Source: Malania oleifera (lineage: Eukaryota > Streptophyta > Magnoliopsida > Santalales > Ximeniaceae). Taken from it: a stretch of 64,000 nucleotides of DNA. Every line of letters begins with the position of its first letter. Position 1 is the stretch's first letter. The notes beneath the pieces are model-generated. The model saw nothing but the letters and a program-made list of their open reading frames with translations, did not search any database and had not been told where the DNA came from. The position numbers and the translations under genes were made by a program. The stretch lies in contig NC_080420.1 of assembly GCF_029873635.1 (NCBI RefSeq), positions 123,760,719-123,824,718 of the forward strand, read 5' to 3'. Positions 12,955 through 53,901 of the stretch are shown here, piece after piece.

Positions 12955-15900
12955 CACTTAAATTTTTTAACGTGGTAAAAACCCAAGTTTGGGAAACATC
13001 CACGAGATCTCGTGATCCAAACAAACCTCCACTATGTCAATAATAGGCATACAAAGTCTACAACAATGGAAGCACTTTACTTATCTTGCCATTGATGGAT
13101 TACAAACAACAAATAACAACATTTGTTGGATTTTGCCTCCATAGGCTAAGAACAATGGAGCAAAGACATGCATACAATATTGTGTATGTTATAGGACAGC
13201 CTAGCAGCACACATTTTCCTCTTCCTTCCTTTATTCTTTCTTATTTTTTTTATTGTTTTCTTAATTGGTCGGCAGTCCACGTGGGAGGAAAAAACCGACC
13301 AACAATCTCCCCCTTTTCCAACTCATGTGGGAAATTTTTCGTCCCTACTATAATCTTGCAAGTATCAAGTTTCTTTAATGGTAATGGCTTGGTCATCATA
13401 TCTGATCCGTTGTCATCTGTGTGGATCTTTGTAAGATAGAACTTCTTCATTTCCAGTGCATCTCGAATCCAATGACACCTGACTTCAATATGTTTTGATC
13501 GTGAATGAAATATTGGATTTTGGCAGGGTCAGTGGCACTTTGGCTATCACTTTGAAGTTCATACTTCTCTTGTTTGAAACCAAGTTCGCTTCTGTGATGA
13601 CAATATACTCTGCTTCAGTACTTGATAATGGAATGCACTTTTGCAATTTTGATTGCCACGATATTGCTCCACCTGCGAATGTTGTCGTATAACACGAAGT
13701 TGATTTTCTTGAGTTAACATCTCCAGTTAAATTTGCATCAGTATATCCTACTAATATTGGTTTTCCTTGACCAAAACATAAGCATAGTTTACTAGTACCA
13801 TGAAGATACCTAAAGAAAAATAAGCGTTTGTACCTCATCATCAAGCACTAGCTTTGTGGTCACCAACTGATTCAGAATTTCCTGAAACTTGTTCAAGTGT
13901 TCAGATGCACTTTGCCCATTATAATACTTTAAGTTGATCAACTTTATAATTCAGAGGAATAGTAGACGCTGCCAGAGGAAGAGGATCTTCTCTTCCATTC
14001 TCATCTTTTTAGTTACTACAAAAGGGGATGGTTTGTGAGGGTTGAGAGCATTTGAGAGTTGCTTCTTGTATATGATCTTTGTTAATAATAGAATTCTTTC
14101 TTGTCTTGCCCGTGGACGTAGGCTACAAGCCGAACCATGTTAATTTCTTGTGTTTTGTGATCGTTTTGTGGTTATTTTTCGTTTGGTTGGATCAATTTTT
14201 CGCAACAGATTGGTACCATAGCCAGTTCTAATCGGACGATTGAGATTAAACATTTCAGATGTGAGATCCAGAACGAAACCCACTCTCACCGGCAGCGCAT
14301 GGTGGAGAGTGCAGCTCACCTTGGCGAGCTTCGGCGACGTGCTTGGTACCAGTGCGAAGGTTTTTGCAGAAGCTGAATATGACCTCAAAAGTGGCAAAAA
14401 CTCAGCCGGTTTGAGCCGATTTGAGCACAAAATTCTGCTCCTTTTCTGGTGGAAAATGAGGCCAAATGGTCAAGCCTCCTTTGAGGCGCTTGTATAGGTC
14501 GATTTGTCTCTACCTTCTAAGCATGGTGGTGGTGGAGGTGTCGACCACTTCCCTTGGAAAAAAATCTTGTGTGGTGGTCGGATAGTTCAGTTGGCGCTGG
14601 CTCTGATACCAATTTGTTATGAAAAATTGATCCAACCAAATGAAAAATCAAACCACAAACGATGACAAAACACAAGGAGTTAACGTGGTTCAGCTTGGTA
14701 GCCTTTGTCCACGGGCAAGACAAGAAATAACTCTATTATTGACAAATATCATATACAAGAAGCAACTCTCGGATGGTCTCAACCCTCGCAAACCATCCCC
14801 TTTTATAGTTACAAGAAGAGATGAGAATGGAAGAAAAGATCCTGTTCCTCCAACGACATCTACTGTTCCTCTGGCGGCGTCTACTGCTCCTCCAGTGGCG
14901 GCAGCTGTAGAAATGTGTCTAAATTTCTCAACTTCACTGCTTATTTTTAGCATGATATGCTGATAATCATATCAAATGTTGAGGATATGCCTCTTTTTGA
15001 GGGTAAAAGCGAGGAAATTAAGGTTTTTTTTCTTGGTGTTCAAATTAATTATATTTTGAAGCAGTATTGTCATGGCCTAGTTTTACTCGTCGATCCATGT
15101 TCTCATGATCTTTTAAATTTTATTCTTAATTTTTGTAACATTTATTGAATTGCAGGTATTAAGTTTTTTCTGTTGTTGTTGTTGTTTTTTTTTTTTTTTA
15201 AATTGACAATTTGGAGTTTAAATAGTTAATTGAGTTTTGGTTTATTTGGTTGCTTACAGTATGGATGGCTTGTTTCTCTTTCAACTACCAATTTCACTTG
15301 ATTATCTATTTTTGGAAAAGTATGTGAGTTTACTCAAGGAATAATGTTCTTTTTAGGTCTGTTTAGTTATTCCTACTGTAAATTTGTCCCCTCTTTGTTT
15401 TACGTTGCTTTTTTTTTAATTTTTGGTGGTGAGTGAAGAATTTAATTCTTTTTCTGATTCTTTGTTAATTGAGGAGACACTTTGTTTGAATTGGGTTCTT
15501 TGGAGAAAAAAGGAAAGAAATTAAACTCTCCTCATCCAATTCACTAATTTGGGTTGCATTTTATAGAATAAATAGAGAAACAAAGAGGTATCAAGGGACA
15601 GTAAAACCCCTTGTGACTTTTTTTGCAACTTTTTGCAAGTGGAGAGGTTGCATTTTTTTTTAAAATACAAAAATACACCATCTAATATAAAATAAAAAAG
15701 GAGAAAAAACAAATGAATGTTCAAATAGCATAAGGGAAAAATCATGGATCTGATCCCCTCCTGTTCGTCAAGAACAAATTTTATCATTTTTTAATGTGTA
15801 GTTGTCAAATCGACATTCGAATTGTGAATCGAAATTCCTATTTTGGGAATCGAGAATTGAGAATCAAATTGAATCGTAAGATTCAAAACAATTTCCAAAA

Positions 15901-23099: not shown

Positions 23100-23642
23100 C
23101 ATCAAAGATGCTTTAGGAAATTAAGATTACAGAGGGCTCAGTTCTCTTTCTCTCCGTCTCTCATTCTCTCTCGCCAATCTTTTCTCTCACTCTTCCGTCC
23201 CTCCTTCTCTCTCTTCTCGATTTCCTCGGCCAAATGGGCGCCGATCAAAAAACGGAAGGTACCCCTGGGTTCCATTCTCCTCCACCGACATTTCCAACGG
23301 AGTGGATTTGTCGTAGGAGTGACGTAGGCACCACTCCTGGGGTAAGGTAATCTCTTTCTTTTTCCTCAAATTCTCCTTAAGTCTCCAACCAAATAGACGA
23401 TTGGACACAACCACAGGGTCCTAGGTTCGATCCTCGTCATGTTGGCCAGAGCAAATTTTTAATTTGGGTCTCCTACGCACCACTCCACAATTAGGGTAGG
23501 ACAGTGGAAATAAGTCCGTTAATTATTGTTAAAGTATAATTGGCTATTGGAAGTGTGTGGGTGTAGAGACCCAATGAATTATATTAATTAAATGATAGGA
23601 GGAGGAGAGGAAAAGAAATTGAAATACGAAATTCAGCAGGGT

Positions 23643-23815
23643 CTCGTTGACGAACGGGCTTCTTGGGCTTGTCGACGGGGACACGTGTCTCGTCGACGAA
23701 AAAAATACCGAGAAGGCTGATTTCGGATTTGAAATTCGTCGACAAAGAGTAAGTGTTCGTCGACGAAATTCCTTCATGTCCTCGTCGACAAAGTGACGTA
23801 TCTCGTCGATGAAGA
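23643..23815 (+). promoter_or_regulatory. TTCGTCGACGAA palindrome array in palLTR-a
   Basis: Seven copies or near-copies of the 12-bp palindrome are spaced about 15-35 bp apart and end 18 bp before a TATA-like CTACATAAG. Two CACGTG G-box cores lie in or at the edge of the array (near 23682 and 23815). Upstream-of-TATA placement suggests a U3 enhancer; this is inference. Confidence 0.65.
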
Positions 23816-24813
23816 CACGTGGCTGAGCATTCTACATAAGGCCAAGATGACCCTTTCTACGAGAGAAATCCTCTTCTTTCAGCTCTCTTTCTCTCTCTCC
23901 TGTACGGTTTTCTTCCCTTCTCTCTAGAAATCTGGGCCGATTTTCAGCCGGTTCAACGATCCGAAGTCGCCATGCTACTCTGGGGAAGTTTCTCTCCATT
24001 TCTGCTGGAGTAGATCGTTGGTGAGGCCAACTTGAACACAATCCCAAATTCAGGGTAAGTTGGCTATCTTAGGCTTTTTGATGAATATTTGGTATTTCTA
24101 GAGTTGTAGAAAAGTAGTATTTGGAGAAATACTGAAGTTCTGTTAGGAAAAGTGTTATTTTTAGGGTGTTGAATTGAGAACCCTACGGGTGCAGAGTTAG
24201 TTATTTTTGAGGCTTTCTAGTAATCAGGTAAGAGAATAAACTAAGGCAGTATTTTCCATACAAATTATTCAGTATTTGTGAGTAAGTAATTTTAGTAAAT
24301 ATGTGTATATTATGATTATGTTTGGGAAATACTGTTGATGAACAGGGAATACAGTTTTAGAAAATTTAATAAAAAAATGTGATCAGTTTATATATTCAGT
24401 TTTGATATTATTTAAACAGTGTGGCATGAATATCATTTTTACAGATAATATGTTATGTCAGATTTGCAATAAATATATATTTACAGCAATTTTTTAAAAA
24501 ACCATAAATGTTATAGAAAAGTATGGTTTCGGTATTTCATGATAAACAGTACAGATAATCAACTCAGTATGTTATGATATGTACGACACAAGGCCCTATT
24601 GATAGCCGGCGCAAAGCTGTAATTATGTACATCATCCGGCGCAAGGTCGTGTTTACTATGATATGTCAGAATTTAGAGAAATGCTATCAATCTAATTTCA
24701 TGTTAATCCAGTATATGTATATGTACTATATGTTATCAGAACCCGGATGGTAGTGTAGATAAGTATTCAGAGCACGATACCGTAACAATTCAGTTCAGTT
24801 CAGACTTGTGCTA

Positions 24814-25015
24814 CCACCCCTGCCAGTAGAGGGGGTGGGAGATGGATAGTTGATGTGACTTCAGTGTAGTGTTGTAGACGTCTCCCTGGCAGTTCGGACT
24901 AGGGTGGGGCTGGCCCATCGTACTTACAGACATATTTGACTTGGCAGTGGTCGATCAACCATTGTCAGGTCCCACTTTCGGGTTGCACAACCCGTCATGG
25001 GGGGTAATACATGAC
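24814..25015 (+). other. Conserved hairpin block in palLTR-a
   Basis: Three short potential stems: CCACCCC/GGGGTGG (24814-24838), TGGCA/TGTCA (24942-24967) and GTCATG/CATGAC (24994-25015). Equivalent positions in the other copies keep pairing, in several cases with different bases. Likely lies in transcribed LTR sequence. Confidence 0.45.
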
Positions 25016-26032
25016 ATTAGCTAGTTATCCATCTTGGGTATATTTCAGTACTATCAGTTATAGCAGATGATTTTATAATTACAGAAAATCAGTATGTTTT
25101 AATATGCTTATGATCATATATCTATTACTCAGTTATTATATTACCAATGTTTACCAGACATGTATCACATACTATTTATTTATTATAATACAAAAATATT
25201 CATGTTAACACACAACTGTATGTAGTTTATTTTCCTTTACTGAGAGGTGTCTCACCCAAGTTTAAATATTTCAAGAAACCCAGATAGACAAGCATACCGA
25301 GGTCCGCGCTGTTAGGGGCAGTTTATACCACCCTGCTAGGAGGGTGAGTTTTGAACTAGGGTCAGTTGGTTTTTGATGTATGATCCTAGTTTTATCTTTT
25401 GGTGTCTTTAGGAATTGTATATATACTTTTACAGAAATTTTGTGGATTGTGAATAGCTCTGGTATTGTTATTATGGATGAATTTTATTTTTACCGCTACT
25501 TAAGTGTCCGCTGTGTATGATAGGTATGTTCCCGTTACCCACAGGTTTAGGTTGACTTCGCTATATCATTAGTTATTGGTATCAGGGTATTTAATATGAT
25601 TGGTTATGTAGTAAATTAAGCGGGTCATTACAGTGGGCCTAGAAAATATTAAAATAATTATTATTCTAAGAGTTGAGTTGATTAATTTGGGGAAATGTGA
25701 ATTTCTGGATTTTGAGCGTCAAACGCCGCGGGCGTAGATTTGGGTATTTTAGTGTGATCTCAGTAAACCAGGTAAGGGAAATAAATTATTACAATTATTT
25801 TTGAAATTACTGGGTGAGGAAATAAATGAAAACGAAATTATGATATTTCGCCTAAAATTATTATGATAAGAATATCGGATAAAATTGTGTGGCATATGAT
25901 TTATACTGAATTGTGATGTTTTGAGAAATGATGGAAAGTGATAAATATTGTTGAGTATTTTCTGAGAAATAAAGAAATGTGAAACATAGATAGGTTTACT
26001 GAAAAATGATGGAATATGGTATACATACACAT

Positions 26033-26052: not shown

Positions 26053-27514
26053 GGAAATATTTTCTATGATAATTGAGGAAATATGAAATGATGGTATGTG
26101 TTACTGAAAAATGATGAGAATATTGAAATTTGATATATACTATTATGAGATGAAATGTAAATACTGAAATGTAAAATTGAAATGTGAAATATTGAAATGT
26201 GGAAACGAGAGCCCTGATGGACTGCTGTTGATTGAAAGTACGATATCGTTGCTTGGGAGGTGTTAGTGCAACCACACGGTCTTGTGGAGAGTGTGGTGTT
26301 GACAGAAGATTGAGCCAGGAAGGGTAATTTTGCCCCCTGGGTCCGGACTAGGGTGTGGCAGACCAATGTCGCAATAGTTCAGTCGGCCCAATGCCGTGAT
26401 AGTTCAGTTGACCTAGTGCCGTGACAGTTCGACTGACTTTATGTCGTGATCAGTTATGATATAACAATTTATTCAGAAATTATGATATGATAGTTTTTAC
26501 GCAGAAATATGAAAACGAGATATGTTACAGTTATACTATGTATTATATGGTAGCAGAACCCTGATGGATTAGTTTAAATTCAGAGTATGGTACCGTAGCT
26601 ATTATTTCATATTAGTGCCACCACATGTCTCAGATAGAGTGTTGGTGTATGGTAGACAATTGGGCCATTGAAGAGTAGTATATCCTTTCTGGCAGTCCGA
26701 ACCAGGTTGGGGTGGCCAATCGTGCTTATAGACGAGTCAGTTTTGGCTTAGCGTGGTAGGCCAGCCATTGCTAAGTCTCGCCTACGGGTTGCACAACCCA
26801 ATCATGTGGAAGTAATACATGATATTAACTAGCTATCCATCCAAGGAAAATTTTCAGTATTATACGGATATAGCAGATGATTTACATGTATATAGAAATT
26901 TATTATGCCAGAGTAAGTTTATGTTGAAAAATATGATTTTACCAGGCTTATATAAGTATGAGTACAGATTTACATGATTTATTAGTTATAGTTAATTATG
27001 TTACAGTTAATTATTTACAGGATATGTTTATAACACACTAGAATTCATGTGGCCACACACTCATGATAATCTATCCCATCTTACTAAGAGGTGTCTCACC
27101 CAAGAGTTTAAACATTTCAAGAAACCAAGACAACCGTGTGGAGTGAGCTCCAAGGTAGAGGAGGCCTTGGTACTATAGTATCAGGGTAAGTGTTTTGAGT
27201 TGGGGGATATGTTTTATGTAAACCTTAGGATATTTTATGGATTTTTTTGGGGATGTGTATGTATATTTATGGAGACAGTAGGACTCTGGTATTGTATGTG
27301 AAGTTCAGGTATATTATGTTTTCCGCTGCATGAATAGTATGTATTTAAGAACAAGTATACCCCCGATACCCCACTTTGGGTCCGGGTTGACATTATAGAT
27401 ATTATTATTATTGGTATCGGAGCACATTTTTAGCAGAATTCACAGGTTCGTTACAGTTTGATATCAAAACAGATATATATATATATATATAAGATGGATA
27501 GTTGGGTCGTTACA

Positions 27515-29346: not shown

Positions 29347-30646
29347 GAAGGTCTTTTAATCGCACCCACACAAGAAGGATGGTTTTGTGCTTATGCCCAA
29401 ATTGGAAGTATTTCAACATTTTCGTTAAAATAAGGGTCCTTCCATAGATAGAATAAGGGACATTTTGTAAGACCTAATTAAGGTCCTCTTCTCTTTGAAA
29501 TTTAAAAATTATCCAACCCTTGTCGTGTTGGATTGAATCAACCTGGACTTTCCAAGATCGAACCATGGAGTTGAAAGCAGCCCTACTCGGAAACTTACCT
29601 GTGAAATACCTTTCCAGGTGTTTGTAGCAAATCCTCACCGAGTCTATGATTTCTGAGGCATGGATGCGAGCACCATCACCATTCGGGGCAAGTGTTGTTA
29701 ACAGACCACAATTCATAGGATTTCTATTGTTGGCGAATAACTCAGCCCAAACCACCTTTTTATTGTTTCTCATGATTGTTCGAACTAACTGATTCTCTTG
29801 GGCTACTGGGCTTCTCTTCTCCTGTTCAATCAGATTATTTGTAGGTTGTTGTATTTTCTCCCGTACTGAAGCAACCATGTTGCTCGAGTCTTTCGATCCC
29901 ATCATTTCTATTTCTAAAGGATCCTCATCTCCCCATGACTTCCTCCTTTCTTTAGATTTCTCAATGCTTTCACCTTTGCTCTGGTCACTACTAGTCCCAA
30001 TTAACCCCATCTTTTCTGTAACGACCTAAAATTTCCTACCATTTTTTTTAAAACTATAAAGTTTCACTACTCTAATACCTTCTAATATAAACCAAACCAT
30101 CATCACGGACTAGGTAGGGACCGTGGAATCAAAACACAATAAACTACTTAAGCAGCTGGAAGCAGAATACATACAACCATAACAAAATATACAATACCAA
30201 AGTGTCAGAATTCCTTCCAAAATATACATACACAATCATTTTCAAAATGCCCTCTTCTGGACCTAGGGACTGCTCAAGAATAACTATTCAAAATACTCAC
30301 CCTACTGTTAGGGTAGTAATGTAGCCCCCTCTACCTGCGAGCCTGATCTTCTCGCCTAACTGGATCATTTGAAAAATATTAAATCACTGGGATGAGACAA
30401 CACTTAGTAAGACGAAATATGCTATTATTAGTGTGTGGCAACTGAGTCTACACAAATAATTTACTGAAAAATAACTGAACTGAGATATCATGTAAATAAT
30501 GTGCAACTCATACCTACTTGGCTAAAATACAATTGTATTATCTAAGTGTCTATTTATCCATATTGATAAGAATATAATATATCTATTGTTCTTCTGTAAA
30601 TCCGTACATATATAAATAACTGAGAAATATCCCTAGAAATCTGTTT

Positions 30647-30894
30647 GTCAAGATTTAACCCCTCATGACAGGGTTGTGCGACTCGTAGGATGAACTTAAC
30701 TCTGGTTGGCCTACCAGGATGAGTCACCTGAATACTCTACCAATCCCTAGTTTGGCCTTTACTACAATCTCTCCAAAGGCACGGTACTGGTATCTACCTT
30801 GTCGAATAGACCTCCTCAACCCAGAATAGTAGGGAGACTGCAATCTCTCCATAGGCACGGTTGACGGAATCCACACACTATTTGAGATGTGTGG
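30647..30894 (-). other. Conserved hairpin block in palLTR-b
   Basis: Potential stems: CCACACA/TGTGTGG (30871-30894), CTGGT/ACCAG (30702-30717) and GTCATG/CTTGAC, which has one mispair (30647-30669). Order and spacing match the other palLTR copies when read on the minus strand. Confidence 0.45.
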
Positions 30895-31973
30895 TTGCAC
30901 TCTAATATGAAAATAGCAACGCTACCGTACTCTACTAACTGAATCTGTCTAAAATAATTCGTCAGGGGTTTATACTGTATAATACTAATATATATAATTA
31001 TCTTGTTGTTTTATCATGATTCCAAAATAACCATAACACTATAAATCTGATCTGAAATGCTGAAATATCTGACTAAAATAACTGTAACATATGACTGCAT
31101 AATTTATAATGTCCGAATGTTATGGTTTTGGAAATCATGGAATTCTGTAAATGCTGTAACTGCCTGTAAAATATCTGTAAAATATCTATCTGTAAAATAT
31201 CTATCTATTTATATATATACTGTAATTTATACTTCTGTAAAATTTGGTACAATATATTTCTGTGCAAAAATACTGTAAATCATAGTATTCTGAAAGATTG
31301 CATAAATTATGAACTGCCCTGATATTAACTCATGCCACATAACTAAATAAAATCTCCCTGTACTGAAATCTATATTTTCTGATAATAAAGATAATTTATA
31401 CCCTATAAAGCATATCCCAAAAACACACATATATTACTGATAATATTTCTGAAATTTCTAACATAACATATTTCTCTTACATATCTAACTGGGAGGTTGG
31501 CCTCCACTAACTCTTGCACCCTCGGTGTACCAACCCCAAAAACCTGGGCTCCCGAACAGATACTTGCTAGAGTTCTCAACTCATAATTATAGGGGCCCAA
31601 AACATACTATTCCTGAAAATATGATACCCCAAATTTATTCCACAAAACACTAGTATATTCTCATTGAATACAAAATCTCACCCCAAATAATACTAGTAAT
31701 ACTGAAAATACCTAAAATTCCACTTACCCAAATTTTAGGATGGTTCCCAAACTTCTCAAATTGAATTTTTGCTCCAGTTAGGTTATAGAGAATTTCCCCA
31801 AGATCATCGTGGTAGCTTCTAATTGTCGAGCCGAGGAGAATCAGAGCCAGAAATCTAGAGAGAAGTGAGAGAAACCCGTTTTCTAGAGAGAGAAAATGAG
31901 AGGGAGGGAGAGAGAGAGAGGAATTTTCGCCGAAAATCTGTTTTCTTCATATTTATTGGTGGCTGGCCACGTC

Positions 31974-32146
31974 GCCTCGTCAACAAGTCCATGAAGGCAG
32001 TTCGTCGACGAAGATGGTGCCCTTGTCGACGAAATTCAGGCCCTAAAAATAGTCTCTCAGTAAATTCTCGTCGGCAAGACACGTGTTCACGTTGACAAGT
32101 CCAAGAAGACGATTCATCGACAAACACTCCACATTCGTCGATGAGA
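31974..32146 (-). promoter_or_regulatory. TTCGTCGACGAA palindrome array in palLTR-b
   Basis: Seven variants of the palindrome lie upstream (minus strand) of a TATA-like box 16 bp away. One CACGTG G-box core is included. Several copies are C-to-T or G-to-A variants at the CpG positions. Confidence 0.65.
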
Positions 32147-32831
32147 CCCTGTCCCTTTTGTGAAATTTCTCTTTTCTTTCCTTTTCTTATTATTTAATTA
32201 TTATAAATTCTCCCTATCTCTACATTTTCAATTAACTTCTTATTCAACATTGACAAGGTCACCTTCTTCACCATTCCAAACTGGATATAGCTAATGGTCC
32301 CCTCACTCGAGCCAGCCAAGTTAGGGCTTGCATGTGCTCCCGTCTGCAACTGAAGTTTGTCCATCTGCTCCATTGAGCTTTGCCCAACCTTCGAAACAAC
32401 CCGTGGTATGTTCATCACCTCTTTCAACAGGCGGCCATACTCAGCCATAATTTCGTTTCTCCTCTTTTTAATCCAAACATCCCTCTTTCCCCCTTTGATT
32501 TCTATAAACTTCAGAGCGTATTTTACCTCCTCCTTGGATTTTGCTTCCATCTCTGCCTTCCCCTAAGCCCTAAATGCTCCCTTACGAACCATGAGCATAC
32601 ACAGTATGCAGATTCAAATCTGCACTTGGGCGGGAAACCGAGACTTCAAAAACCTTCGTCTACTCCAAAATCATTGATCTACCAACACAATCCTCAAAAT
32701 CTGCAAGGAATCCAGCGCTAGAAGGAGGTTCACACCCAAAACCGTGCATCCCTAGTGAGGGACGGGAGCTTCTCTTTCTAGACATGCCTCATCTTGTTAA
32801 TTAGATGGAAAGTGTACCTTTAGGAAGGTTT

Positions 32832-38170: not shown

Positions 38171-39033
38171 TGATGAATCAGTTTTCCCGTCATTAGGAGA
38201 AGGAAAAGGTAAAGGATTAAAAACACAAGAAATTTGTTGGAACACACCAACTTTGTCTAATCTTGATACACACACAAATCAATGTGAACTTGAAGTTCAA
38301 AGAATAATTCATTTGCAGAATGCTGCAAATCAATTGCCAGATGTTTTTACAGACACCAAAAGGGTCACTTAATCACATGTTTCGGCTGCAAATATTCCTG
38401 CCAGATTGATTGTTCCTGAAGAACACCTAATGGGAATAGCAGCTAATGAATCTAAAGTGCGCTAGAAGCGTGGTAAACCAATTGGTGCAAAGGATACTGT
38501 TCCTTGAAAGAAAAAGGAAATGAAAAAAGTGACACTCCAAAAGAGGTCATTAACACTCAAGAAGAGGTTAAAAGAAATATAGATCAACAATCCCATATTT
38601 CCATAGAAGTAACACCAAAAGTGTTTCTGGTACCGAAAAATTATGAGATCTCATTAAAAATTTGAAAATATGTGGAGAAAAAATGAAGTTGTTGTTGACA
38701 ATGTGTTTGCATATGCAATTGCTTCAGAAATTATTAATGATAATGAGTCTGAGCCTCAAACTGCAGAAGAATGTCAATATCGAAATGATTGGCCAAAATG
38801 GAAAGAAGTAATACAAGCTGAGCTAGACTCATTAGCCAAACGTAAGGTATTTGGACCAGTAGTCCAAACACCTAAGAATGTCAAACCTGTTGGGTATAAA
38901 TGGGTTTTTATACATAAAGGAAATAAATGAAATTGTGAGATACAAGGCGCGTCTTGTAACGACCCGGAAAATACTGATATTTAAATATTGAAGAAAGAGG
39001 AAAATGGAAACAGGAACATAAAGAGGCAGTAGA

Positions 39034-39280
39034 CTTCGTCGACGAGTACATAAGGAATTTCATCTACGAATACAGGACTTCGTCGACGACTATTCGTCGA
39101 CGAGCACATAAGAAAATTCGTCGACGAATACAGGGCCTCGTTTATGAGAAAAAATCGAGAGGGGGTATGGAGCAACGTGAATTTCGTTGACGAATACAGG
39201 GACTCATCGACGAATTTAATGAAAGACTCGTCAACAAGGTGACGTGTCTCATTGACAAGGTGACGTTTCTCGTCGACGAA
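39034..39280 (+). promoter_or_regulatory. TTCGTCGACGAA palindrome array in palLTR-c
   Basis: Nine copies; the clearest array here. Five keep the GTCGACGA core exactly. Copies alternate with ACGT-containing spacers such as 'gtgacgtgtctc'. The array stops 8 bp short of a TATA box at 39289. Confidence 0.7.
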
Positions 39281-39288
39281 TCTGGCAG

Positions 39289-39295
39289 TATAAAT
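39289..39295 (+). promoter_or_regulatory. TATA box of palLTR-c
   Basis: TATAAAT lies about 335 bp from the LTR start, just after the palindrome array; the equivalent box in palLTR-d is at 42408-42414. It would put the U3/R border near 39320. Confidence 0.6.
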
Positions 39296-39915
39296 ATTTA
39301 AAAATTGGGATTTTTATCCATTTACCAGCGCCCCTCTCTCTTTCGACGAATCCTCTCCCTTCTCTCTTCGATTTCGGCCCCACCAGTCGCCGAATTGACG
39401 ATCCGAAGCTATTGTGAAGCTCCTGGCGAAATTCTTTACAAGTCTGCTGGAGTGGATCGTCAGGAAAATGAAATTGAATTTCATCTCAAATTCAGGGTAA
39501 GGTCTTTTATTTAGATTTTGGCCTTATAACAGTTATAGAAAATGATGTAGGCGAAAAAATACTAATATTTTGTTCTGAGATATTGTGTTTTCAGGATATT
39601 GAATTAGGAATCCTACGGGTATAGAGCTAGCATTATATAGGGGCTTTTCAAAGTTAAGGTAAGGGAAACATGTTATATTAGGAATTTTCATAATACTATC
39701 AGAGATTTCATATACACATTTTTATACCAGTTTATTATATAGTATTTGCAGTATGTGAGTGTAAATGTTTGTGTGGCCTGAGTAGATTTTCATGTGATAG
39801 AGAAACTTGTATAATTTTATAAAGTATCATACTATACTGAATATACGGATAGAGACACATATTCACAGAGATTCATATACAGTTTTATATGAGTAGTTTC
39901 ATAAAACAGACATAT

Positions 39916-39922
<7 letters not shown>

Positions 39923-39964
<42 letters not shown>
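39923..39964. repeat. (TA)n microsatellite in palLTR-c
   Basis: About 20 TA units, with CATA/TACA interruptions on both sides. Confidence 0.9.
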
Positions 39965-39970
<6 letters not shown>

Positions 39971-40331
39971 CATATACATGTATACAATGTTACTCAGATC
40001 AGTATTTATATTATAGCTCATTATAGAGCAGTATACACAGAGTTATAGTATGTCATCTTCCTATTACCATAACTTATAGAGTATATAGACAGAGAACATA
40101 GACAATGGTGTAGACAGATATATATAGAGGTAGCATCAAGATGCTATAAATATAGTACACAAAGTTTACAGTAATTATAGTACAGAAAGATAGCATTATG
40201 GTAATTTTGGAAACATGACAAAAACAGTTATATGTATATATATGTATATAGTATCAGATCCCTGTGGAAAGATTGCAGATAGATACAGTTTACAGAGCAC
40301 GATACCGTTGCTATATTCAAATAGAGTGCAA

Positions 40332-40570
40332 CCACACATCTCAGATAGTGTGTGGGTACCATCTAATCGTGCTCGGAGAGGATGTAACTCCCCAGTACGC
40401 TGGGTAGAGGGGGCCGATTAGACGAGGTAGCAGCCAGTCCCGCGCCTAGGAGAGGATGCAGTTTGGCTGGGCTGAGGTAGTGTAAAGTACATTGACTTAT
40501 CTGGAGGGCCGACCAGATAGAGTCCGGCCTACGTACCACATAACCCTGTCATGAGGGGTCAAATCATGAC
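40332..40570 (+). other. Conserved hairpin block in palLTR-c
   Basis: Potential stems: CCACACA/TGTGTGG (40332-40355), ATCTGG/CCAGAT (40499-40518) and GTCATG/CATGAC (40548-40570). The order is the same in all palLTR copies. Confidence 0.5.
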
Positions 40571-41305
40571 GTACAGAGTCCTACGGAATAAGCACATATA
40601 TGTATATGTATACAATATTACAGTATATGATGAGTATAATATGATATTATCAGTATGAAAAGTAGAAAATACAAACGTTACAGTATATTTTAAATTGAGA
40701 AAGATAGATATGCATGAAAGATATGTTTTACAGATTGTTGCATTACAGTTCAGTTGCTATATCTTAAAGTACTTTTAACTTAGTTGCCACACACTAGTAA
40801 TAGTATATTTCCACTTACTGAGCGTCGACTCACCCCATTACTCTAACATTTTTCAGGTGAGCCAGATAGGCGAGCAGATCAGGCTTGTAGATAGAGAGAG
40901 TGTTTGGTCGCCCTGGTTTAGGGTGAGTTTTTGACAAAATTGGGTATATTTTTGAGTAGATGATGATAGAAGAACATTTTTGTACAACTATAGTCTATAT
41001 ATCCTGGATTCTAGTATTGTATAGTAAACATGTGAATGGTTGTATGATATATGTTTCTGCTGCTTAGGAATGGATGTGAATTCACAGATGTATATATATA
41101 TATAAAATGGTATGAATTTTGAGGTCGTTACACGTCTTGTAGCATAAGGTTTCACTCAAAGACCTGGTATAGATTATAATGAGACCTATTCCCCTATTAT
41201 GGATGCAGTTACTTTTAGATTTCTGATTAGTTTAATGGTTTCTGAAGGACTTGACATTCGCCTTATGGACGTAGTAACAACTTACTTGCATGACTTATTA
41301 AATAA

Positions 41306-41350: not shown

Positions 41351-42213
41351 TCTAAAGGATTTAAAATGCTTGAAGCATATAATCCAAAACAATAGCAAAT
41401 GTATTCTGTTAAATTGCAAAGATCCTTGTATGGATTGAAACAATTTGGACGAATGTGGTACAATCGTCTAAGTGAATATTTATTGAAAATTGGATATGAA
41501 AATAATTTTATCTGTCCTTGTATTTTCATTAAGAAGATAAATTCTAGATTTGCTATAGTCGTAGTTTATGTTGATGACATAAACATAATAGAAACTCTAG
41601 AAGAGATCTCAACGATTGCTGACTACTTAATGAAAGAATTTGAGACGAAGGATCTTGGGAAGACAAAATTTTGCCTTGGTTTTCAAGTTGAACATTTTAC
41701 AAATGGAATTCTTATTCATGAATCATCTTATATAGAAAAAATCTTGAAACAATTTTTTATGGATAAATCTTATCCATTAAGCTCCCCAATGGTTGTTCGT
41801 TCACTTGATGTAAAAAAGGATCTTTTTTGTCCTCAAGAAGATGATGAAGAAATCCTTGGTCCTGAAATACCCTATCTTAGTGCAATAGGAGCACTCTTAT
41901 ATCTTGCAAATTGCACTAGACCAGTATAGCTTTTGCGGTAAATTTGCTGGCAAGATTTAGTTCTACACCAACTCAGAGATATTGGAATGAAGTAAAACAT
42001 GTTCTTTATTATCTTCACGGCACATCTGATATGAGTTTGTTTTACCGAAAGGGAATAAAGTCTGTATTAAAAGGATATGCTGATATTGGATATCTTTCTG
42101 ATCCTCATAAAGCTCAATCATAAGCAAACTATATTTTTACATGTGGTGATACTTGTGACAACCCGAATAAAAATGGAATTTAAATAATAAAGAGGAAAAG
42201 AAGTTATCAGAGG

Positions 42214-42400
42214 ACTCGTTGACGAACACAGGGGATTCGTCGACGAGGGTATAAGAGAATTCGTTGACGAAGACTGAATTTCGTCGACGAGGAAATACTG
42301 AGAGAGTTTTGAGCCGACTGAATTTCATCGACAAGGACTGAATTTCATTGACGAAATTATTGAAGGATTCGTCGACCAATGACGTGGCTCGTTGATGAAT
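42214..42400 (+). promoter_or_regulatory. TTCGTCGACGAA palindrome array in palLTR-d
   Basis: Eight copies, two with the exact TCGTCGACGA core and the rest mostly CpG-to-TpG or CpA variants. It ends 7 bp before TATAAAT (42408). Confidence 0.65.
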
Positions 42401-43139
42401 CCAGTTCTATAAATATAAAAAATCCGAATTTTTAACTTCACCCTTAAGCAAACTCTCTCCCCTCTCTCTCCTCTTAGGTCCTTTCTCTCTCTTTTATAGA
42501 TTTTGGGCCGGATTTACGCCGGTTCAACATTCCGAAGTCACCACGACGCTCCTGGGGAAGTTCTCTCCAAATCTGCTAGAGCGGATCGTTGGTGAAAGTA
42601 AGTTGGAAATCATCCCTGAGTTGAGGTAAGGTTTTTTAAGCCAAATTTGATCTTACGGTAGTTATAAGAAATGATGTACATGTAGAAATACTGAAATTTA
42701 ATACTGGAAGTTTTCAGTTTCAGGGTATTGATCAGGAAATCCTACGGGGGTTAGACTAGGATATTTTAAGAGTTTTTTCAGTAGTCAGGTAAGGAAATAA
42801 ACTAACGCAGTTACTTTTTACACAACTATTATTATTTATGAGTGACTTGATTTCCTGAAAGTATTTACGGTATTTGAATATTATGGAATAAATGCACGTT
42901 TGAGAAAAATATTGCTAATGTGATGAAATGTATATATATGTATGAGATGCCAGAAATTAAGATTTTTAGAATATAATATATGGTTTTATACAGCAAATGT
43001 GTGGCATGAATGTTATTTTCCATGAAAGAATATCATGATACGACGATGATATGAATGAAATATGTTTTGAGAAATTATGAAAGAGTACAGTATATTATAA
43101 TGTTGAATTACATGATAAATGATTTATTTTCAGAATGAT

Positions 43140-43290
43140 ATGTATGATATGTTCGGCACGAGGCCGTGAGTATGAAATGTTCGACATGAGGCCGTAATTA
43201 TGTAATGTTCGGCACAAGGCCGTAATTATGTAATGTTCGACACGTGTCGAAGCCGTAATTATAAAATGTTCGACACGAGGCCGTATTTAT
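43140..43290 (+). repeat. Short tandem repeat in palLTR-d
   Basis: About five units of 'atgttcg(g/a)cacgaggccgta' plus 'attatga', with a period of about 29-35 bp. palLTR-a has only a shorter version (near 24600-24660), so copy number varies between LTR copies. Confidence 0.75.
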
Positions 43291-43420
43291 GAAATTATGA
43301 AAGATGTTATATATTAACATGTACTATATGTTATCAGAACGCGGATATTAGTTTAGTTTAGTTCAGGAGCTCGGTACCGTAGCTATATAGATAAGATATC
43401 TATGTTCAGATTAGTGCTAA

Positions 43421-43622
43421 CCACCCCACGAGGGGGTGGGAGATGGATAGTCGATGTGGCTTTCAGTAGAGTGTGGACGTCCACCTGGCAGTCCGGACCA
43501 GGATGCGGCAGGCTCATTGTACTTACAGACATTTTTGACTCGGCAGTGGTCGACCAACCATTGTTGGGTCTCGCCTTCGGGCTGCACAACCTGTCATAGG
43601 GGGCGGGGGAGTAATACATGAC
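43421..43622 (+). other. Conserved hairpin block in palLTR-d
   Basis: Potential stems: CCACCCC/GGGGTGG (43421-43439), CGGCA/TGTTG with G-U pairs (43541-43566) and GTCATA/CATGAC with one mispair or wobble (43593-43622). An extra CCTGG/CCAGG stem lies between the first two. Confidence 0.45.
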
Positions 43623-44750
43623 ATTAGCTAACTATTCATCTTAGGTATGTTTTCAGTATTATCAGTTATAACAGATCTGTTTTATGTACGTTATGATTTT
43701 TAATAAATATGAAAGTACATGAGAATTTAGTATGTTATGATGAATGTTTACCGATATACGAAATGTACTATATATGTATAATTGCATTAAATACTCGTGT
43801 TGCCACACAGCTGTATTTGGTTTATTTTCCCTTACTGAGATGTGTCTCACCCCCAACATTAATTAATTTTTCAGGAGACCCTGAGTGACCGACGGTCGTG
43901 GCCGCCGTTGAGTTACAGATATTACCCCATTAGGAGGGTAAGATTTTGTACTAGGGTCAGAATTATTTTGTGTTTGATCCTAAAGTTATTTTGATGTTTA
44001 TGAGGATGTATATAAATACAGTTTTATGATGTTGTAGCAAACTCTGGTATTATACTTTTCAAGATGGATGAATTAGATTTTATACTTGCTGCTGCTTAGG
44101 TTTCCGCTGTGATTGACAGGTGTCCCCGTTACCCACGGGTTCGGGTCGACTTTTCTATTTATTATGTTACATTTTATGTTAAGGAATTTGAAGACGTTAC
44201 AATACTGCTATCTTATGGCGATCCGTAAAGCAAACGATCACCACTACCTTTTCAAACCATTCAGAAATATTGGCAGTTCACAAAATAAGTCGTGAATGTG
44301 TATGATTAGGAACTATAATCCAACATATTAAAGGGACAAGTGGATTATCACTAGAGAATGACACACCAACAATATTGTACGAAGACAATGCATCATGTAT
44401 TGCACAAATCAAAGGTGGGTACATAAAGGTGATAGAACTAAACATATTTCACCAAAGTTCTTTTACATTCATGAACTTTTGAAAAAAGGAAATGTTGACA
44501 TTTGCAAAATTCGTTCAAGTGACAACCCAATAGATCTATTCACAAAAGTATTGCCAACTTCAATTTTCAAGAAACATGTACATAACATTGGAATGCGACA
44601 ACTTAAGGACATTTCTTAATTGATTGTATTTTTCAGGGAAAGTATGAATATTGTACTCTTTTTCCTTCGTTAAGGTTTTGTCCCACATGATTTTCCTTAG
44701 CGAAGATTTTAACGAAGCATATTCATAGTGTATAATCATTTAAGGGGAAA

Positions 44751-52087: not shown

Positions 52088-53901
52088 TGTGAATTTATGT
52101 GTAATCCCAAGAGGGGGGAGGAGTGAATTGGATATTTTAAAAATCGTAGTCTTTAGATTTCAATTTTGTAAAAACTTACAACCACACATGGACAAACTAG
52201 GTAACAAGCAGTTTAGTATTTCTCAACTTATCAATTTAATGTGTGACTTTATCAAGCAAACAATATTACCTAATTACTTAACATACACAACAAACAAATA
52301 ATTAAGTGCAAGCGGAAATTAAAAGAGTTAAGGGAAGAGAGATGCAAACACGATTTTTACGAGGTTCAGCCAACCCGGCCTGCGTCCTCGCCTTGGGTAG
52401 TTTACCCAAGGATTCTACTATACTGCTCCTTAACGTGGGATGGAACTTCCCGTTACAATTCGCTGCTTACAAGAGACGTAGTTATCTCCTAATCCGCTGC
52501 TTACAAGAGGTGTAGCTTCCTCCTCACGATTCACAAACCAAACCGTTAATACAAATAATGAATAATAAATTTCTGAACACTCAGACACTTCTCAATAAGC
52601 GAATGAGTACAATTAGTTTAAGCACTCTTATAAGGTATAATATGAAGTTCAAGAGGGAATATAATTTTCAATGATGTAAATGAAAAGTATGATCTTTATA
52701 TGAAAGATATATATGTACGAGGTGCTTCAAAGATCTAAACTTTATTCAATATCTCCCAAAAATGATACCTTAAAAAATATGCTTTGGAGATTCTAGGGTT
52801 TGCTTTCAAATAACTTTTGTAAGAATAATAAAATATAAAATCTTTGAATCAGAATATAACTTTGAATATCACAAAGATTTAATCTCTTGTTTTCAAATAC
52901 CTTTTGCAAAAATAATATTAAATCTTTTGAATAAAAAATATGCCTTTGGATATTACAAAAGATTTGTTTGAACAAGTAAATATGTGAGATTTGAGTTCTT
53001 GCTCCCAATATAAGATTTTAAATAAAAGAATACGGGAATAGATGAGCTTATAAGAATAAGATTGAATGCTCAATAATAAAGTTAATCAAACCTCAAGATC
53101 AAACCAGTTTTTCGTAAGATGATATGAGTGTAAGCACGTGGATCTTGAAGATGATCTTGACGAATGCCCAAACTTGATGTGAATACGTTGAAAGTAGGCA
53201 AAGCTTAGCAAAAGTTGTTCCAAAGTTGTGCTAAAGTGTTATCCTAGGGTTTAGAGTTGGTATATATAAGTATTCTCGTCCTTTGATCAATTTTCAACTG
53301 TTGGATCATTTAATTAAAAAATTTCTGTCCGTTTCTATGCTGAAGCGCCGTTTTGCGCTACGAACTCGTCGATGAATGTTCGTACCAGTCGACGAATTTC
53401 CTTTAGTCACTCGTTGACGAGAACAAGGGATTCGTTGATGATTGGGCTGTTTGAGATTTTTATGGTTTTGGTATTTTCTCATCGACAAGAATAGAGAGTG
53501 TTTCGGCGACGAGTGACCTTCAATCATTCATCGACGAGACGAGCTGCCCTTTATTCAGCCCGATCCAACCTAGGTTAATACATATGAATATGTCATGAAA
53601 AACATGCATCCTAGGTCAATTTATATGACATTTTGAGCTTCGCATCATATCTTATGAGTTATGCAAATACAATCAAACCTAATGCGAATTACTACTGAAA
53701 ATTTGGATTGCTTTTATCCTTCTGCTCTTCGGCTTCCATGGATTGAGCCAAATGGTATGTACTTCGTGTTACTCGTGGCTTCCATAGCGTGCTTACCATC
53801 TGTGCATGCTAAGTCATGATCCTGTTCAAAATCTCAATACACAGGTAAAATACCAAGTGAATTGTCATTATCAAAAAAGGATTGGACTCATAGAGCCAAT
53901 A
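52088..53901 (-). mobile_element. palLTR-e: solo LTR of a different family, 1814 bp
   Basis: It runs TGTGAATTTATG to GAGCCAATA on the + strand (TA replaces the expected terminal CA) with an exact 5-bp TSD, ctata (52083-52087, 53902-53906). The complement carries CCAAGGCGAGGACGCAGGCC and a 'gaacctcgtaaaaatcg' block typical of sense-strand Copia R/U5, so it reads on the minus strand. A TATATATA box (53261-53268) lies downstream of a palindrome array (53364-53539) in that direction. It has no coding region. It interrupts the Copia-3 5' LTR. Confidence 0.88.
53364..53539 (-). promoter_or_regulatory. TTCGTCGACGAA-type palindrome array in palLTR-e
   Basis: Seven variants, such as CTCGTCGATGAA, AGTCGACGAATT and TTCATCGACGAG. 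It lies 96 bp upstream (minus strand) of the TATA-like box at 53268-53261. The same motif is found in palLTR-a to -d, but the rest of this LTR is not similar to them. Confidence 0.6.

Follow-up and report, generated by a model that had tools for sequence, protein, structure and literature searches.

Our results show that the genome of Malania oleifera carries very many ordered arrays of a 12-bp palindrome, YTCGTCGACGAR, that these arrays lie in long terminal repeats (LTRs) of Ty3/gypsy and Sirevirus retrotransposons, and that they keep a tight spacing and a position upstream of the TATA box. We think it probable (roughly 0.7) that the array is a promoter-proximal control module of the U3 region: eight copies of the palindrome, set in two quartets before the TATA box, would be bound by a dimeric factor, likely one of the host. 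The window, as used below, is the whole stretch of 64,000 nucleotides that was analyzed (NC_080420.1, positions 123,760,719 to 123,824,718).

The repeating unit was derived from 170 sites, picked at up to three mismatches in 24 arrays that were not chosen for the motif (those of the window and of loci L005 to L024). Its core is TCGTCGACGA. In these 170 sites T2, T5, A8, and A11 are conserved at 97–99%, and of the 161 changes seen at the six CpG positions, 150 are transitions from C to T or from G to A. At the outer positions T or C prevails on one side and A or G on the other. Because the two outer bases do not covary, the symmetry of the palindrome rests on the shared core. The flanks of the sites hold little information. 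CpG observed/expected is 1.73 in the arrays, 0.71 in the 300-bp flanks, and 0.57 overall; we used this ratio and not the CpG-island program of PMC2829016. The near-invariant non-CpG positions, together with the tight spacing described below, would fit a platform for a dimeric factor, as the sequence-only reading of the window had proposed.

In the whole 1.494 Gb genome there are 37,861 exact copies of TTCGTCGACGAA versus 67 of its reversed control, and 145,455 copies of the central 8-mer CGTCGACG versus 10,405 for the control. We also surveyed contig C1, taking 10 kb every 6 Mb and counting at least three matches with up to three mismatches as an array. The survey found 19 arrays in 12 of the 20 stretches, a density of about 95 per Mb. 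If C1 is typical, the genome holds roughly 140,000 arrays (85,000–220,000 from counting error alone, in counts that are not independent events given the family structure of the elements).

In the window itself there are three exact matches and 27 with up to two mismatches, where shuffled sequence leads us to expect 0.00 and 0.82 (largest shuffle 3). All 27 fall within five clusters; scattered singles are added at three mismatches. The five arrays that the sequence-only reading had described are hence real, and each lies, as it had said, inside a solo LTR, here delimited by a 5-bp target-site duplication (TSD). The features are as follows.

23562..25632, plus strand: solo LTR a, 2071 bp, TSD GTGGG
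23643..23813, plus strand: array a, seven sites, spacings 25, 21, 46, 21, 25, 21
30017..32224, minus strand: solo LTR b, 2208 bp, TSD TTTTC as read on plus
32001..32145, minus strand: array b, four matches with up to three mismatches; six sites under relaxed scoring, some outside this range
38955..41132, plus strand: solo LTR c, TGTAACGACC...GGTCGTTACA, 2178 bp, TSD CGTCT, TG/CA ends
39035..39280, plus strand: array c, ten YTCGTCGACGAR sites, CpG observed/expected 2.15
39289..39296, plus strand: TATAAATA box in LTR c, beginning 20 bp downstream of where the last palindrome begins (8-bp gap)
42154..44201, plus strand: solo LTR d, 2048 bp, TSD ATACT
42215..42399, plus strand: array d, full eight sites, offsets 0, 21, 45, 65, 109, 129, 153, 173
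42408..42415, plus strand: TATAAATA box in LTR d, beginning 20 bp downstream of where the last palindrome begins (8-bp gap)
52088..53901, minus strand: solo LTR e, 1814 bp, Sirevirus type, TSD TATAG
53365..53538, minus strand: array e, seven sites (relaxed scoring), spacings 20, 25, 21, 47, 24, 25 as read on plus

Array c is the one that had been reported at 39034–39280. Copy numbers had been given as 7, 7, 9, 8, and 7 for a to e. The total of 38 stands under relaxed scoring (C or T at position 1 of the site, A or G at position 12, CpG transitions forgiven), but the counts become 7, 6, 10, 8, and 7, so that b and c differ. The clusters are CpG-rich, as claimed, with observed/expected ratios of 1.64–2.15 versus 0.57 for the window. 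CACGTG, said to occur in some of them, is present near a (two copies) and b (one) and not near c, d, or e. A TATA-like box 7–18 bp downstream had been claimed for a to d. In c and d the gap is 8 bp; for b the only box found is AATAAATA, 30 bp after the last palindrome starts, and no canonical TATA box of the types searched was found after array a. LTR c is inserted in copia-like pol sequence (identity judged by eye). Elsewhere in the window, 26508–27514 holds diverged stretches similar to LTRs a and d, with an LTR-like end, GGGTCGTTACA, at 27504; a scan at up to three mismatches found no palindrome cluster there. At 13314 on the minus strand there is a copia-type junction word of polypurine tract (PPT) and LTR, AGGGGGAGATTGTTGG.

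The layout of the arrays follows a tight spacing rule. We compared 30 arrays, six of them from loci found via exact doublets, and grouped them by LTR similarity with a shuffle control: 17 belong to family A, three to a subgroup around LTRs a and b with A-like LTRs, seven to family B, one to the Sireviruses (array e), and two to none of these. A complete array consists of two quartets, eight sites in all, with steps of about 20/24/20, 46, and 20/24/20 bp, and the quartets start about 110 bp apart. Among the 155 start-to-start steps shorter than 30 bp, 154 are 19–22 or 24–26 bp long; a step of 23 bp never occurs, and the one remaining step is 14 bp. Fitting an eight-slot model with a tolerance of 2 bp either way, we found all slots filled in nine arrays and at least six in 25. 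In the nine full arrays the offsets are 0, 19–22, 43–47, 64–68, 109–115, 129–135, 153–159, and 173–180. The same preference is seen genome-wide in exact doublets, which involve no slot fit: of 3,123 pairs with a gap of 0–30 bp, 2,059 have a gap of 7–9 and 946 of 11–13 (3,005 together), and the other 25 gap values share 118.

The position relative to the TATA box is one-sided. Genome-wide, TATAAATA occurs 2,260 times 3–33 bp after an exact motif and 19 times before it, which strongly supports that part of the earlier interpretation that placed the array in U3, before the TATA box; the interpretation as a whole is partly supported. In family A, the commonest, 14 of the 17 arrays have the box 20 bp downstream of the last site's start and another has it at 22 bp; the other two are without a box of the searched types. 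Family B has it at 31–32 bp in five of seven arrays, the others at 34 and 52 bp. In the a/b subgroup, which includes L011:1802 (its LTR resembles a and b, not family B), it lies at 30 and 31 bp, and none was found in the third array. We do not claim helical phasing with the TATA box, since the 193 sites have no clear period (R is 0.46 at 11.0 bp and 0.23 at 10.5).

In our sample the motif is not equally common outside LTRs: 23 of the 24 arrays not chosen for it lie in something similar to an LTR. The exception, L023:7077-7223, has the usual spacing (21, 25, 20, 48, 21) and was matched to no LTR family. Relatives of LTRs a to d flank Ty3/gypsy interiors. In L005 and L012, both of family A, the paired LTRs lie about 7.1–7.2 kb apart, with pieces of Ty3/gypsy protease, reverse transcriptase, RNase H, and integrase end between them, and the domains RVP_2, RVT_1, RT_RNaseH, and SH3_Tf2-1 are recognized in L005, L012, and L009. 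The L005 interior, about 5.0 kb, accommodates gag, protease, reverse transcriptase, RNase H, integrase end, and a partial chromodomain, and leaves little room for a further gene. A putative family A chromodomain (PF00385), which would suit a chromovirus of the Del/Tekay kind, is seen as two broken pieces in the expected place behind the SH3-like domain of the integrase, with E-values of 0.0014 and 0.0051, both below the curated cut-off. In family B, L019 has Ty3_capsid and RVT_1; the pieces of L006 and L018 that were searched for domains gave no match. The pieces beside the LTR of L022 are copia gag, probably the insertion site. The elements that we examined closely are old and no longer intact, so that the array does not imply a present-day function.

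Families A and B also tell us something about the history of the array. Six of the seven spacers are 25–37% identical between them, within the range of 300 shuffles, and their lengths stay close, although the 2-bp tolerance of the slot fit limits how far these lengths could differ. The seventh, which separates sites 6 and 7, reaches 50% identity versus 26% when shuffled (maximum 38%), and because it remains similar the arrays of the two families have a common origin. By this comparison, most spacer letters have been lost since that origin and the spacing kept; part of the spacing may be inheritance. We set aside a comparison of core and spacer identity from pairwise alignments, as it was biased by a reference required to hold the core.

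Array e is of a different kind. The sequence-only reading rightly counted it as a fifth array in an LTR but missed that it belongs to another superfamily, a Sirevirus, and reads on the minus strand. Aligned stretches of LTR e, which begins TA where its relatives begin TG, are 78–84% identical to both LTRs of a Sirevirus-type element on contig C12. That copy has Retrotran_gag_2, Pol_BBD, gag_pre-integrs, SH3_retrovirus, and RVT_2, the domains of a Ty1/copia gag-pol. It also has five AGGGGGAG octamers, the last followed by AT and then TGTTGACTC (the AT/TG attachment site), and its primer-binding-site junction, CATTTGGTATCAGAGT, is two mismatches from the Sirevirus form. Multiple copies of the PPT AGGGGGAG, the last followed by AT/TG at the 3′ LTR, and the 5′ junction CA-ATTGG-TATCAGAGC are given as Sirevirus hallmarks in passages of PMC2829016. 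Judged by these relatives, array e belongs to a Ty1/copia Sirevirus LTR.

The e family has the YTCGTCGACGAR palindrome in nearly the same spacing as the gypsy arrays, with some sites degenerate. In each of the three copies examined, the TATA box comes 108 bp after the last site (TATATA in array e, in the sense of the LTR). A comparison of the central spacer with gypsy family A gave 31 and 28 for two copies, above all 100 shuffles (maximum 26 each), and no excess for the window copy (20, shuffle maximum 28). Against family B the e family has no excess over shuffles. Homology of the central spacer between the e family and family A is therefore suggestive only.

To other Sireviruses the likeness is looser. 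A Sirevirus-type PPT/LTR junction word has 7,622 matches, and our sample consists of the first 16 loci. In none of these 16 Sirevirus-type LTRs does a YTCGTCGACGAR array occupy the usual place; three YTCGTCGACGAR sites lie 1.43 kb into the LTR of L053. Arrays of a TTCAGnCGnCTGAA-type palindrome are present in seven (L051, L053, L054, L055, L057, L058, and L065), each with at least one further PPT upstream. Pooled over the 16 loci, TTCAGnCGnCTGAA yields 35 steps of 20–22 bp and seven gaps of 50–52 bp, whereas the reversed control yields seven sites with no close pair and the half-swapped control 22 sites, among which a single 22-bp step and a single gap of 51 bp occur. In L057 the steps are 21, 21, 21, 50, 22, 22, and 20. 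Because L051 and L065 have six sites ahead of the 50-bp gap, four plus four is not universal. The TATA box lies at 108–109 bp in L055, L057, and L058, at 119 bp in L053, 142 bp in L054, and 80 bp in L065; none was seen close to the array of L051. These LTRs resemble LTR e only over the first 80–310 bp or so, and their steps are 20–22 bp throughout, versus the alternating 20 and 24 of the YTCGTCGACGAR arrays. Hence the Sirevirus TTCAGnCGnCTGAA arrangement has different letters and is similar rather than identical to the YTCGTCGACGAR layout. One further sampled LTR, L064, has a single copy of CGGTCGACCG about 255 bp in, which is the Vitis Sirevirus RM word of PMC2829016.

How could such an array work? 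The position, the symmetry, the conserved core, and the tight spacing would all suit a dimer that binds cooperatively next to the core promoter. We propose that the palindromes are bound cooperatively along the DNA by a dimeric protein, most probably a transcription factor of the host, and that this binding would drive or license transcription of the element. A host factor seems likelier than an element-encoded one because the interior examined has little room and two superfamilies share the motif. That the effect is activating we infer; an effect useful to the element is favored because the lineages that multiplied kept the array. Lineages that kept sites and spacing would thus have multiplied, and their copies, once inserted, would change mostly at CpG, the pattern that methylation would produce.

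One could also argue that the array is a target of host silencing: a repressor or a methylation-guiding factor would read the palindromes, which the element either cannot lose or retains since silencing limits harm. The concentration of decay at CpG is consistent with methylated copies, and the CpG islands in LTRs of Del elements have been discussed in connection with silencing (PMC4029996, in part). However, CpG decay is to be expected of any methylated transposon, with no need of an array, and the loss of sites would benefit the elements, yet similar layouts recur in several families. We consider this reading unlikely. A signal at the level of RNA is less likely still. U3 is transcribed at the 3′ end of the RNA, where neighboring palindromes could pair into 12-bp hairpins, and the outer bases do match across 54 of 73 pairs of sites 19–22 bp apart (about 37 if independent). 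Part of this excess persists within slots (for slots 1-2 and 3-4, pairs with T/C and A/G ends match in 27 of 36 cases, about 19 expected), which is why we give the RNA signal slightly more weight. Yet there is no excess in slots 7-8 (11 of 22) or in pairs 24–26 bp apart (25 of 39, where about 24 would be expected). Shared ancestry may explain the excess, given that related arrays are not independent, and an RNA role would not predict a fixed distance to the TATA box.

The remaining two readings are the least probable. One is a platform to which an element-encoded protein binds to remove methylation, as in VANDAL21 elements, where the protein VANC21 recognizes a short motif arrayed outside the coding sequence (PMC5735166, in part); against this, the L005 gypsy interior has little room for a further gene (one interior, not read in every frame), and a palindrome common to two superfamilies speaks for a host factor that both use. 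An inert tandem repeat, in which a palindrome that arose by chance was multiplied by slippage and the spacing simply inherited, would agree with clear local duplications (39035–39083 and 39093–39141 in array c are 86% identical) and with the one spacer still similar between families A and B, but most A/B spacers have lost their similarity while motif and spacing held, and in Sirevirus-type LTRs a similar layout is built from a palindrome of other letters.

The sequence-only reading knew of no described element with such an array. This calls for a correction: CpG-rich palindrome arrays before the TATA box of LTRs have been known from Sireviruses since 2010 (PMC2829016), and in the literature searched by topic these RM boxes are the nearest match to our arrays. 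According to passages of that paper, RM boxes are CpG-rich palindromes of which an element has eight copies or more, most of them located in the LTR's upper half and a short way before the TATA box; 13 of the 21 Sireviruses listed bear them, one of which (Tnd-1) is without the CGG-CCG core, and a common binding factor could not be named. The gypsy A and B arrays likewise repeat a CpG-rich palindrome about eight times shortly before the TATA box, and the Vitis RM word CGGTCGACCG shares the GTCGAC center with the palindrome described here. In contrast, the gypsy core is TCGTCGACGA and not CGG-CCG, and most arrays read here are in Ty3/gypsy-type LTRs and not in those of Ty1/copia Sireviruses. Array e, though in a Sirevirus, has YTCGTCGACGAR without the CGG-CCG core. 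The fixed steps and two quartets found here have no counterpart in the passages of PMC2829016, where a spacing rule was not found. By analogy, the gypsy arrays appear to work like RM boxes, yet they are not members, because core and superfamily differ.

Other known systems are more distant. LTR CpG islands of Del elements occur in some monocot groups and not in the eudicot Del group (PMC4029996); a palindromic array is not described in the parts of that paper considered here. The VANDAL arrays are alike in that a short motif is repeated in the non-coding parts of a mobile element and, in VANDAL, read by a sequence-specific protein, but that motif, YAGTATTAY, is non-palindromic, stands in one orientation, and is bound by a protein of the element itself (PMC5735166, in part). 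The BII boxes of Tnt1 (PMC3316501) and the heat element of ONSEN (PMC3907296), each seen in part, are plant LTR promoter boxes bound by host factors, with other motifs. Among the candidates, the heat shock element nTTCnnGAAn (PMC3907296) does not fit in its spacing, as TTC and GAA are six bases apart in YTCGTCGACGAR.

For YTCGTCGACGAR we found no known plant factor that matches the motif. Searches with the exact 12-mer and the central 10-mer found no described motif in print; the matches listed concern unrelated subjects. The CBF/DREB site RYCGAC, a site of barley CBF1, contains GTCGAC and would explain only the central six bases; it is a lead and not a finding. We also considered INDETERMINATE-DOMAIN, WRKY, and bZIP sites as candidates for the palindrome. 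A prokaryotic or viral source was rejected: doublets occur in 22 viral contigs, 21 of them at GC 0.58–0.72, and in one Myxococcota contig at GC 0.72, and we read these as unrelated. The viral contig IMGVR_UViG_3300044612_001891 (L040:2020-2075, GC 0.40) contains TTCGTCGACGAT twice at a distance of 21 bp, with more GTCGAC palindromes close by; these are either a look-alike or a related control element.

What is new here, then, are tightly spaced palindrome arrays of the RM kind in Ty3/gypsy families of high abundance. Sirevirus lineages use different palindrome letters throughout the array, yet they keep a similar arrangement and some of them also the TATA distance. A single architecture might be common to Ty3/gypsy and Sirevirus elements: groups of palindromes about two helical turns apart, a gap of about 50 bp between quartets, and a place before the TATA box, shared by exchange or by convergence on the same host assembly, alongside a gypsy expansion to the order of 100,000 arrays. 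We hold this tentatively, at somewhat less than even odds, because the Sirevirus layout is only similar and the TATA distance holds in three of seven LTRs.

The gypsy arrays with their spacing rule offer a precise target for finding the binding factor. They also mean that very many ready-made, TATA-linked putative binding arrays are spread across a plant genome, where genes nearby could come under their influence. Should the superfamilies have exchanged the module, promoter capture would be one way in which bursts of retrotransposons arise.
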